Assembly (NCBI GenBank): GCA_024277445.1
Contig: JAJRVE010000120.1
Span: 1 to 37,993 of the forward strand
DNA: 37,993 nucleotides
Source: Campylobacterales bacterium
Lineage (GTDB): Bacteria; Campylobacterota; Campylobacteria; Campylobacterales; Sulfurimonadaceae
Direction: 5' to 3'
Positions within the stretch are counted from its first letter, which is position 1; the number at the start of each line of letters is the position of its first letter. Both the position numbers and the translations under genes were made by a program. The notes beneath the pieces were generated by a model that was not told where the DNA came from, did no database searches, and was given only the letters and a program-made list of their open reading frames with translations. Of this stretch, positions 3,073-16,240 are shown one piece after another.

Positions 3073-3906
3073 ATGTCTCAAGTCGTTCTCATTACCGGTG
3101 TTAGCTCTGGTATAGGAAAAACATCAGCTCTTTTGTTGGCGGAACGTGGTTATATTGTTTATGCCGGAACACGTACACCTGATAAGTTTGAGACAAATAC
3201 AAAAAACCTGCACGTAATACAACTTGATATAACCGATACAAAAAGTATTCAAACTGCTGTTCAACACATCTATAAAGAGCAGAAAAAGATAGATGTGTTA
3301 GTAAACAACGCGGGTTATGGTTTAGTCTCAACGGTAGAAGATGTAACAGAAGCGGAGATGTTTGAACAGTTTAACGTCAATGTCTTTGGTGTGTTTCGTG
3401 TCTGTAAAGAGGTGATCCCCCTTATGAGAGAGAATAACTTTGGTGTCATCATAAATATCAGCTCATTTCTTGGAAAGATTGGACTTCCTCTCTTGACCTT
3501 TTATAACTCAAGCAAGTATGCAGTCGAAGGTATAACAGACTCGCTTCGATATGAACTTAGAGACTTTAACATTAGAGTACACTCCATAATGCCGGGCTTT
3601 TTTAATACCAATTTTGCCAAAAGTAATTTAGTGACAAACGCTGCAACCTTTGAGAAAAACTCTCCGTATTCAAAACTTGTCTCTAATCTTGCACCCAATA
3701 TTGTTGAGCAGATCAATAATGGAAATGATGCAGGTGAAGCAGCTGAACTCATTGTTAAGATGATAGAAGACGAAGCATCTCTTGCGAGAGAAACAGTGGG
3801 TGATAAGGCAAGTAAGTTCATTCCTATGCGGCGCGAGCTCAGCGATGAAGATTTTGAGCGAAGAGTGAGAGAATATTACAAGCTTGAGGACAATCATGGT
3901 CTATAG
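3073..3906 (+). CDS. SDR family oxidoreductase
   Basis: TGVSSGIGK, NNAG and YNSSKYAVEG motifs of classical short-chain dehydrogenases. Confidence 0.88.
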   Translation: MSQVVLITGVSSGIGKTSALLLAERGYIVYAGTRTPDKFETNTKNLHVIQLDITDTKSIQTAVQHIYKEQKKIDVLVNNAGYGLVSTVEDVTEAEMFEQFNVNVFGVFRVCKEVIPLMRENNFGVIINISSFLGKIGLPLLTFYNSSKYAVEGITDSLRYELRDFNIRVHSIMPGFFNTNFAKSNLVTNAATFEKNSPYSKLVSNLAPNIVEQINNGNDAGEAAELIVKMIEDEASLARETVGDKASKFIPMRRELSDEDFERRVREYYKLEDNHGL

Positions 3907-12214: not shown

Positions 12215-13332
12215 TATCTCTTTCTCTCTTGTTCAGTTAAGTAACACGATGGATCTTCACTCCATAGGTCTCCGGTGATAGCGTAAGCACGCGCACGTGA
12301 ACCACCATTACAGATGTCAAGTTGCTCGCAGGTTGCACAGATACCGCTGATCTGTTTACGTGGATGGATACGTAACTGGTCCAGAAGCTCTACCCCTTGC
12401 CAAACCTCACCAAAGTCTTGTTCTATGATATTACCAACAGTAAGCGGGAAGAAAGGATCAGGACGAACGTCACCTTCTGAGTTAATGTTAAGCAGTTTAC
12501 GACCAGCACTGTTACCACCCCAGGTCACAAGACGTTTTCGCATGGTCTCTTGGAGTTCAGGGTACTTTTCACTAAAGCGGTTCAAGAACATCACGGCATC
12601 CATCTCCATGTTCCCCGTAACGATCTCGATATCACGACCACTCTCATAATACTCAAAGGCTTTGTCCAAAATAAACGCTACCGCTTTACGACGCTGCTCT
12701 TTAGTAAGGTCCATCTTGAGGTTGTCTAACCCACGACCTGAGTAGACAAGGTGTGAGATGTAGATCTTAGGGATGTTCTCTTTTTCAACAAGATCAAAGA
12801 TGTACTCTAATGAGTTGATGGTGTCTTTAGTCATGGTGAAACGTATGCCCACCTTAGCACCCGTAGAGTTAGCAAGTTTAACGGCCTTCAGGGTCTCTTT
12901 AAAAGCGCCTTTGAGTCCACGGAAGTAGTCATGAGTAGGTTCATCACCATCGATACTGATACCGACGTAGTTGAAGGTGTCAACGATGTGTTGAACATTG
13001 CCCTTGGTGAAGTAGAGACCATTGCTAGAGAGATACGTGACGATGCCGTTATCCTTACAAAAGTCAGCGATCTCAAACAGATCTTTTCGCGTGAGAGGCT
13101 CTCCACCTGAGAAGATAATGAACTTTACGCCGTTGGCTTTCATCTCCAAGATGGTTTTTTTGATCTGTTCGGTTGTCAGTGTGTCGACTTCATCGAGGGT
13201 TGACTTAGAGTAACAGTGCAGGCAAGAGAGGTTACAGCGGTTAGTGAAGTTCCAGATAGCGATGGCACCATCGAGTATGCGTTCGGGCTTGTTTTCAACG
13301 ACGGATGCGATGAGGTTTGTGAGTCTAAACAT
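12214..13332 (-). CDS. nirJ: Radical SAM haem d1 biosynthesis protein NirJ
   Basis: CNLSCLHC motif, GGEPLTR, C-terminal SPASM-like cysteines (CATCEQLDICNGGSRARA). Confidence 0.88.
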   Translation of the reverse strand: MFRLTNLIASVVENKPERILDGAIAIWNFTNRCNLSCLHCYSKSTLDEVDTLTTEQIKKTILEMKANGVKFIIFSGGEPLTRKDLFEIADFCKDNGIVTYLSSNGLYFTKGNVQHIVDTFNYVGISIDGDEPTHDYFRGLKGAFKETLKAVKLANSTGAKVGIRFTMTKDTINSLEYIFDLVEKENIPKIYISHLVYSGRGLDNLKMDLTKEQRRKAVAFILDKAFEYYESGRDIEIVTGNMEMDAVMFLNRFSEKYPELQETMRKRLVTWGGNSAGRKLLNINSEGDVRPDPFFPLTVGNIIEQDFGEVWQGVELLDQLRIHPRKQISGICATCEQLDICNGGSRARAYAITGDLWSEDPSCYLTEQERKR

Positions 13333-13640
13333 TATTTTTTCCCTTTGAAGGTGAGGATATAGTCTGAGATGAGGTTGAGTTCTTGGTCGTTAAGATGAAA
13401 CTGTGTCATAGCGGTACGTCGGTATCCAAAGGCTTTATACATAGACTCTGGTGAGATGATATAGGCTTGGATCTCTTGTTTGCTACGTTTAGAGGCTATC
13501 TCATTAAAAGGCGGTCCAAAGGCTTCGGCTGTTTGGTGATGACATCCCCAACAATAGGTCTCAAAGACCTCTTTACCACTGCTTGGTTGCGCTAGTAAAG
13601 TTGTTGTCCATAAAAGTGTTAGCAAGAGTGCTTTGTTCAT
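13332..13640 (-). CDS. Small c-type cytochrome (NirC-like position)
   Basis: Signal peptide and CWGCHH haem motif; overlaps nirJ. Confidence 0.8.
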   Translation of the reverse strand: MNKALLLTLLWTTTLLAQPSSGKEVFETYCWGCHHQTAEAFGPPFNEIASKRSKQEIQAYIISPESMYKAFGYRRTAMTQFHLNDQELNLISDYILTFKGKK

Positions 13641-13743: not shown

Positions 13744-13837
13744 GGGTAGGGGGATAATGAATTATAATAATAGTTTTTTTGGAATTTTTTGTTTTATATG
13801 ATGGTTTTAATTCTCTTGGTTGCATTTTTCCTTTTTA

Positions 13838-14119
13838 CGATGCGGAATTTAGTTCCGCCCTGTACGGCGCTTTAGCGCTGTGTGGCACTGCCCAAAAAGG
13901 AAACGAAAAAGGCGCCTCTAACGGCTTCGGGGTCGCTAGCTCGCGACTACCTTCATTCCACTTATTGCGTTCCTAAAAATGACAAACTCGCTATTCACTC
14001 AAACAGTGTCGTTTTCTTTACGGAACTTCATTCGTTTCATTCAGCCCTGCAGATGTTAGAGAGAGCTTCAAGTTGTGACGCATTTTATTAATGTGAGAGC
14101 TGCTCGCTCTCATCCCTGC
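13838..14119 (+). repeat. Structured repeat element, copy A (plus orientation)
   Basis: Aligns with the reverse complement of 14218-14473 over shared blocks (AACGGCTTCG, AAACTCGCT, CTGCAGATG, GTGACGCAT, ATCCCTGC); several hairpins. Confidence 0.75.
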
Positions 14120-14217
14120 CTATACACTTTGAAAGTTTTAATTACTATTGTCGTAAAAAATAGTTTAAATTTCGAACTGCTACGACACAACGATAGAACA
14201 ACTGCTGAGCACTTCAA

Positions 14218-14473
14218 GCAGGGATAAAAGCGAGTAGCTTTTACTTTTAAAGATGCGTCACCGCTTGCTCTTCCTTCGAAACATCTGCAGAGCAGAGCGA
14301 AGAGAATGTAACTGCGTTAAAAAAATGGCACTGTCTGAGCTGAAAGCGAGTTTGCCATTTTTAGCAGTGAAGTAAACGAAGCGAAGGAACCCGATAGCTA
14401 TCGGGCTCGAAGCCGTTTCGAGAGCTTTTTTGCTTACTTTTTTTGCGGAGAAAAAAAGTATGAGTGTAGTCAA
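14218..14473 (-). repeat. Structured repeat element, copy B (minus orientation)
   Basis: Tail-to-tail partner of copy A; hairpins at matching positions with compensatory changes. Confidence 0.75.
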
Positions 14474-14599: not shown

Positions 14600-16240
14600 T
14601 TATGCACCTGGGATAGTTTGTCTGTGCTCGATAGAGTACGTAAACGTAGGAGTCGTTAAACCCTTGATATACTTAACAAATTTACCAGTCTTAGCTTCGT
14701 AGATACCGATACGTCCAGCATTCCACTCAGAAACCATTGTCCATTTACCATGGTTCGCAGGCTCAGCGTGTAAGATACGTGGTACAAGTACTTTACCATC
14801 TTTATCTTTGACTGTTGGAACACTCCAGCTATAAAGCGTTTTGTGTGTTACAGGATCAGTAATCTTACCTTTTTTCGTACCTACTTCAAGAATACGGTCT
14901 ACTTCAAGAGACTGCTTGTTGATTAGGTAGATCTTGTTCCAGTTCGTTGGTCCACCAAGAACATTGTCTGCCCATAGGAACGGAGTATGCTCAGATGTAC
15001 CGATAAATAGACCACCACCAGCAGTAGGAATCTGACGAATAACATCGAAGTTATCATCCCAAATCGTTACTTGACCAAGGTTCATGTTAACGGTAGCACC
15101 TAGTTGTTGTCCTAGACCTTCGTTGTACCATGAAGAACCCTGACCTGGGTGTGGCTTAGCAGATGGACCTGTATAGATCTTTGTTACAAGTTTTTTCGTC
15201 TTAAAGTCAACAACACCCATAACATCACTACCTTGTGACGCTTGGAAGAGGTAACGACCAATCTCTTTACCTTCGTTCAAGAAACCATCATGAAGGATCT
15301 TACCAATGTTTGGAATATCACCAACAATTGGATAGTTAGGCTTAGAGTAATCTACGATATATACGTGACCTGCATCTTTAAGTGCAAAAGCAATGTATGG
15401 ACCGTATGGTGTGTCATAGATACCAGCAACACGTGAAGAACCAATATCACCATCTACATTGATAACGCTTGTAGTAGGGTAAACTTTAAGTGGCTCAAGT
15501 GTCATTGCGTCCATAAGAATAGCGCCACCTGGTACGTAGTTTCCTGCCATTAGGTATTTACCATCTGGAGAAACGGCTAGACCACGTGAGTCAGAACCAA
15601 CCTGTACTTCAGCAATCTTCTTTTGACCCGGTGTGTTCAGGTCGAACATGGTTACTAGACCTGAACGAGAGATCGAGTACGCATAACGAGGCTGGCGTTT
15701 GTTAGTTACGGTTACGTGAACCGCGAAACCTGCTGGGTGGCGTGAAAGGATCTTACCTGTAGTACCATCGACAAATGTTACACGCTCAGCATCACGCTCT
15801 GTTACGAAACAGATGTCTGTGTTTTTCTTAACATCTACTGCTTGAGGATATTTCTTCATCAGTGCAGTTCTGTCATTTAGGGTTTTCCAGCCAGCAGTTA
15901 CATTCTCAAGTGTAAGCACTTCGACTTTTCTACCTTTAAAGTGCTGTAGATAATCAACCATCTTGTCCGCATCGCCTTTGTTCATCTTGTTGTTAAACGG
16001 AGGCATCGCAGTACCTGCACGACCTTCTAAGATAGTCTCTGCAAGCATATAGGCATTTTTCTTGTCAATAACATTCGGACGTAAGTCAGAACCAACACCA
16101 CCCTCGTGGTTAGGACCGTGACAACCCTGACACTCTTTTTCAAACATCTTCTCAACGTCCATGTTTGACGTACCAGCGTACAGTCCAGTTGAAATTACTG
16201 CTAAGGCAGCAACTGAAGTAATTATTTTATTGATTTTCAT
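14600..16240 (-). CDS. nirS: Cytochrome cd1 nitrite reductase
   Basis: Signal peptide, CQGCHG haem c motif, then d1 propeller (SISRSGLVTMFDLNTP, VGSDSRGLAVSPDGKY, HPGQGSSWYN). Confidence 0.95.
   Translation of the reverse strand: MKINKIITSVAALAVISTGLYAGTSNMDVEKMFEKECQGCHGPNHEGGVGSDLRPNVIDKKNAYMLAETILEGRAGTAMPPFNNKMNKGDADKMVDYLQHFKGRKVEVLTLENVTAGWKTLNDRTALMKKYPQAVDVKKNTDICFVTERDAERVTFVDGTTGKILSRHPAGFAVHVTVTNKRQPRYAYSISRSGLVTMFDLNTPGQKKIAEVQVGSDSRGLAVSPDGKYLMAGNYVPGGAILMDAMTLEPLKVYPTTSVINVDGDIGSSRVAGIYDTPYGPYIAFALKDAGHVYIVDYSKPNYPIVGDIPNIGKILHDGFLNEGKEIGRYLFQASQGSDVMGVVDFKTKKLVTKIYTGPSAKPHPGQGSSWYNEGLGQQLGATVNMNLGQVTIWDDNFDVIRQIPTAGGGLFIGTSEHTPFLWADNVLGGPTNWNKIYLINKQSLEVDRILEVGTKKGKITDPVTHKTLYSWSVPTVKDKDGKVLVPRILHAEPANHGKWTMVSEWNAGRIGIYEAKTGKFVKYIKGLTTPTFTYSIEHRQTIPGA

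Follow-up and report, generated by a model that had tools for sequence, protein, structure and literature searches.

The repeat pair and its neighbourhood

Within the window, that is, the whole stretch of 37,993 nucleotides analysed here (contig JAJRVE010000120.1 of a Campylobacterales bacterium), a pair of inverted repeats occupies a gap in a denitrification operon, flanked on one side by the gene of a cytochrome c (13332-13640, minus strand) and on the other by a gene of the cytochrome cd1 type (14600-16240, minus strand). A radical SAM gene adjoins these cytochrome genes. A repeat search of the window delimits two inverted arms, 13894-14057 and 14280-14443, which are 164 nt long each and 70% complementary. 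The original prediction had described this interval as two diverged copies, A and B, in tail-to-tail arrangement, with hairpins in which differences are compensated. All hairpin blocks quoted for the two copies are present at their positions, and both the conserved blocks and the compensated differences are borne out when copy A is aligned to copy B in reverse. The pair comprises the following parts:

13830-14117, plus strand: copy A, a unit with hp0, P1, hp1, P2-hp2 and hp3 (alignment; covariance model match at 13961-14032, plus strand), broken by the small insertion in the next line
13837-13883, plus strand: REP-like double-hairpin module of 47 nt (GCGGAATTTAGTTCCGC, GGCGCTTTAGCGC), in hp0 at CTTTTT^GG
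13916-13922, plus strand: 5' arm of P1 of copy A, CTCTAAC, partner 14055-14061
13932-13947, plus strand: hp1 of copy A, GTCGCTAGCTCGCGAC
13969-14026, plus strand: P2-hp2 of copy A, GTTCC-TA-AAAATGACA-AACTCGCTATTCACTCAAACAG-TGTCGTTTT-CTTTAC-GGAAC, the core found across phyla
14055-14061, plus strand: 3' arm of P1 of copy A, GTTAGAG
14094-14112, plus strand: hp3 of copy A, with the conserved TCCCTGC after it
14150-14186, no strand: inverted repeat GTCGTA...TACGAC at the centre, separating the two tails
14222-14461, minus strand: copy B, the diverged inverted second unit (alignment; covariance model match at 14305-14376, minus strand)
14277-14282, minus strand: P1 arm of copy B, CGAAAC as read on the plus strand, partner GTTTCG at 14415-14420
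14305-14376, minus strand: P2-hp2 of copy B, stem AATGGCA...TGCCATT (covariance model match)
14390-14405, minus strand: hp1 of copy B, CCCGATAGCTATCGGG
14434-14461: hp0 of copy B

The central inverted repeat is also found in other pairs in the copy alignment. The module at 13837-13883 is a separate REP-like insertion and lies outside the repeat unit proper. It occurs further in the same genome (matches to query positions 3-55) and, in the opposite orientation, at a similar site in genome G003 (L247, about 3150-3204).

Covariation and the folded shape of the unit

Homologous copies were collected and a covariance model was built, and covariation is strong in the wider alignment. Four helices (P1, hp1, hp2 and hp3) are replaced as whole stems with their complementarity kept in an alignment of up to 42 copies. 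Perfect Watson-Crick stems are formed by P1 in 38/39, hp1 in 35/40 and hp3 in 32/39 units, compared with maxima of 19, 15 and 19, respectively, in 2000 shuffles of the arms, which take no account of the relatedness among copies. For hp2, 89.4% of cells are paired, both-side changes are seen in 14 of the 17 pairs, and the covariation score is 0.542 versus 0.140 ± 0.015 for shuffled and at most 0.108 for slid controls. P1 is an additional closing stem (13916-13922 with 14055-14061), which covaries too and occurs as CTCTAAC/GTTAGAG, CGAAAC/GTTTCG, CGCAAC/GTTGCG, CGTGGC/GCCACG and CGTGAC/GTCACG; its arms are about 130 nt apart and the other helices lie between them. Because of the effect size and this distance between the P1 arms, there is little doubt that pairing is maintained, despite the relatedness of the copies.

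Unit lengths fall in all three classes modulo three, and just 6/234 frames across the repeat units are open. The proposal that selection acts on structure rather than on an encoded peptide is thus supported by the wider alignment as well as by lengths and frames: with covariation overwhelming, frames closed and lengths not in threes, it is the structure that is kept. That the two copies encode diverged peptide repeats, or resemble each other in inverted orientation by chance, has a negligible probability, since the frames are closed, the lengths are not multiples of three and the covariation exceeds that of shuffles and slides.

The multi-helix fold is accompanied by conserved single-stranded blocks in the copy alignment. 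The unit may fold as RNA or as single-stranded DNA, and either one is compatible with the data. For copy B, the two strands fold equally well; for copy A, folding is not significantly better than that of shuffled sequence on either strand. A choice of strand based on G-U versus A-C mispairs appeared strong at first and was dropped because it was not robust when each distinct stem was counted once.

Reassortment of stem alleles

Each helix has a few discrete stem alleles, which recur in many combinations between copies. Linkage is strong among hp0, P1 and hp3, and hp1 is linked as well, reflecting subfamilies. The hp2 stem shows weak linkage. The apical loop is linked to none of the other helices and almost unlinked to the hp2 stem. 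Stem alleles reassort between copies, and the hp2 tip does so almost freely. These allele combinations are most simply read as short-patch exchange between copies, with independent recurrent change as a possible alternative source.

Covariation could also be generated without selection, by template-switch correction in hairpins combined with short-patch gene conversion between copies. The limited set of stem alleles in many combinations points in this direction, as does the near absence of linkage between apical loop and hp2 stem, which conversion would produce; yet the distant P1 arms match in 38/39 units across the intervening helices, and correction alone leaves unexplained why loops are conserved and stems are free in different phyla (see below). 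We therefore regard this origin as unlikely.

A dispersed repeat family in the genome and the genus

A 651-nt stretch has 75 matches within the same 2.0-Mb genome, which also contains at least 33 covariance model matches to hp2. The unit of about 230 nt occurs in dispersed copies with unrelated flanks, either as singles or as tail-to-tail pairs. It is present in 8/8 genomes of the genus searched, and some other genera of the family carry fewer copies. The copies are intergenic, somewhat commoner at the 3' ends of genes, and lie in both orientations relative to neighbouring genes. The orthologous interval that separates nirS from the cytochrome c gene is 315 nt long and devoid of the repeat in genome G004, and it contains one unit with an inverted REP-like small module in genome G003. 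The repeat has therefore been gained or lost and is no fixed part of the operon. No target-site duplication could be defined, as the flanks at the empty site of G004 are too diverged.

These distributions also bear on whether the repeats constitute a structured RNA family, acting in cis or in trans on the stability, processing or termination of transcripts, with dispersal being secondary. Such a family would be in line with the multi-helix fold and its conserved single-stranded blocks, with the intergenic site inside an operon and with the preference for 3' ends, and ERIC and Correia elements, which change transcripts, provide a precedent (PMC10969869). We nevertheless consider it doubtful, because copies occur in either orientation to neighbouring genes, neither strand folds markedly better, and a scan revealed no promoters above chance and terminator-like sites at about chance level. 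In addition, Rfam 15 returned no match at the gathering threshold in the window and in seven related loci; in E-value mode, all matches of the window were far under the family thresholds and none was credible. A search of phage and plasmid records likewise gave no credible match.

In genome G022, an inverted unit pair encloses a single open reading frame of 263 amino acids (L160, 4745-5990; C1 at about 283.7-285.0 kb), which contains a CxxC and an SEHVPP motif and matches no Pfam family above the cut-off. Its homologues (79% in G945 and 52% in G828) lie between attC-like sites (CTAAC...GTTAG), as gene cassettes. This one case is too little to support the idea that such pairs carry cargo, because both homologues reside in integron-like cassette arrays.

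The hp2 core beyond the phylum

The hp2 core consists of two internal-loop motifs, TA/CTTWAC and AACTC/TCARACA, with the conserved flanks CTAAAAA and TTTTYTTWACG. In Clostridium cuniculi, a 19-mer of the hp2 loop matches about 20 dispersed copies, and it matches others in related Clostridium. The covariance model of hp2 (72 positions, 17 pairs, 40 sequences) matches Clostridium and other Bacillota with E-values down to 7.5e-12, including 27 matches in C. cuniculi; the Clostridium scores arise partly by construction, because 3/40 model sequences come from C. cuniculi or Clostridiaceae, and genomes G207, G210 and G187 are not represented in the model. At E 1e-5, 4/300 sampled Bacillota, C. cuniculi among them, and 1/299 sampled Pseudomonadota passed; at 1e-4, 17/150 Campylobacterota did, a few of the weakest being doubtful. 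These counts are lower bounds because the filters are strict for large samples.

The arms that surround hp2 are unrelated between taxa, and what the taxa have in common is limited to the loops and the pairing pattern; in Bacillota, the cores sit in long palindromes that are otherwise unrelated. The C. cuniculi element of about 685 nt consists of a module, an AT-rich spacer and a second module in inverted orientation, which has a TA/GTTAAG internal loop and a different tip. The closest C. cuniculi copies are 94-97% identical with unrelated flanks, and one subgroup shows 77-80% identity. Copies in the Campylobacterales genus are mostly diverged, and recent amplification is therefore suggested in C. 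cuniculi only. The C. cuniculi copies terminate in inverted-repeat-like sequence, for which neither a duplication nor a parent insertion sequence was established. In two of them (L095, L089), the second module has an extra hairpin of 138 nt inserted into its GTTAAG internal loop.

The two internal-loop motifs act like exchangeable building blocks. In genome G149, TA/CTTAAC is nested within AACTC/TCAAACA, in reverse order, and one group of IMG/VR contigs has TA/CTTAAC in flipped orientation with respect to the tip. A near-identical palindrome with a flipped TTTTCTTAACGG...CCTAAAAA loop is present at L163, L167, L215 and L241 and in similar IMG/VR contigs, many of them predicted proviruses. For AACTC/TCARACA in a paired stem, chance predicts 0.07 occurrences in the 305 kb sampled, where 0 were seen, compared with 15 occurrences in 62 kb of repeat-bearing loci. 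A scan of viral contigs with the loop 19-mer gave 79 matches, many of which are coding coincidences or stand in another context, and only part of them fit the hairpin model. The 19-mer matches in Microbulbifer have no hairpin-model match and were treated as chance.

AACTC/TCARACA and TA/CTTWAC could be the hallmarks of an undescribed class of elements, mobile or regulatory, that is widespread across bacterial phyla, with exchangeable stem alleles and recognition of the folded strand by a conserved machinery; we propose this tentatively. A literature search for the loop sequences yielded no relevant published mention, but it reached few subscription journals, so an earlier description is possible.

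Relation to known repeats

ERIC, bcr1 and NEMIS are short, foldable, MITE-like intergenic repeats (PMC2267715, PMC3733652, PMC10969869). Together with Correia elements and YPAL, they share with the repeat described here a length of 100-250 nt, the lack of coding capacity, an intergenic and dispersed location, foldability and presence or absence between relatives. In kind, the repeat is closest to ERIC, bcr1 and NEMIS; the likeness to ERIC and bcr1 is by kind only, and the unit design differs from that of all three. The repeat is also distinguished from ERIC, bcr1, NEMIS and YPAL by a core common to Campylobacterota and Bacillota, by stems that are exchanged as alleles and by two interchangeable loop motifs in varied orders. 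To our knowledge, ERIC, bcr1, NEMIS/Correia and YPAL are each confined to related taxa.

Integron attC sites are recombination sites that require a folded strand, as the present unit may be too, and are similar in that structure is conserved and sequence free. In contrast to attC, the present unit lacks the RYYYAAC/GTTRRRY core, as P1 can be CGTGGC/GCCACG or CGTGAC/GTCACG without AAC/GTT, and no cassette array is found within the window. REP and REPIN elements with their RAYT resemble the repeat in having inverted hairpin pairs, compensatory stem changes and dimers, but the present unit is about ten times longer and has no RAYT linkage in this genome. REPs are defined by a GTAG or CGTC tetranucleotide beside a hairpin of 20-40 nt (PMC3733652); neither tag is found at hp2, the flanks of which are instead conserved as given above.

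A proposed folded single strand and a putative trans-acting factor

The unit has no coding capacity, occurs in many dispersed copies and is present or absent at an orthologous site, all of which are characteristic of MITEs. The reading that we favour, with a probability of about one half, is that the locus contains an inverted pair of dispersed non-coding MITE-like units, which would be amplified or maintained by way of a folded single strand that a putative trans-acting factor recognises. Conserved loops together with maintained pairing are what a factor that reads a folded single strand needs, and from this we infer its involvement. The unit would be active as single-stranded DNA or RNA, with the helices serving its shape and the factor contacting the two internal-loop motifs. 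Stems could then drift freely as long as they stay paired, while loops could not, and recombination would swap segments between copies. The factor would probably be a transposase or a recombinase and would copy the element or move it. No mobilising gene was found, and the element could be mobile without its folded strand being the substrate.

A weak bias with respect to replication was observed, as the copy-A strand is the leading strand in 25/32 covariance model matches (two-sided binomial about 0.002, not corrected for gene orientation or relatedness); in genome G002 the count is 11/14 matches. This bias fits replication-linked single-stranded DNA, but gene orientation may be its cause.

Mobilisation of a REPIN-like element by a REP-associated tyrosine (HUH) transposase, RAYT, would agree with the leading-strand bias and with the architecture of inverted pairs, and Y1_Tnp genes are present in 10/15 element-carrying genomes tested. 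In genome G207, a RAYT gene (NF047646; L153, 2550-4500) sits between two element copies, amid GTAG-tagged REPs and hp2-type palindromes. This RAYT has its own GTAG-tagged REPs, however, and none of 29 other Y1-bearing loci scanned has an hp2 core within about 1 kb. Moreover, the RAYTs of the present genome (L263, L264; G000) are bordered by short GGGGTCAGGTGA-type ends, and G154, which is complete, and G187 carry the element without a Y1 gene, which makes mobilisation by RAYT quite improbable. The L153 cluster of G207 comprises five copies in 13 kb and is located near ribosomal protein genes.

Concluding remarks

New in this analysis are the recurrence of the hp2 core across phyla and the reassortment of stem alleles between copies. 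Most intergenic repeats of bacteria have been described from narrow groups only, and what mobilises them is a matter of conjecture. With its loops but not its stems kept across phyla, the core provides a covariance model and two motifs that could be used to search for the partner protein. The dozens of stem variants within one genome constitute a natural test set for selection on pairing, and they also inform on how stems change without breaking.
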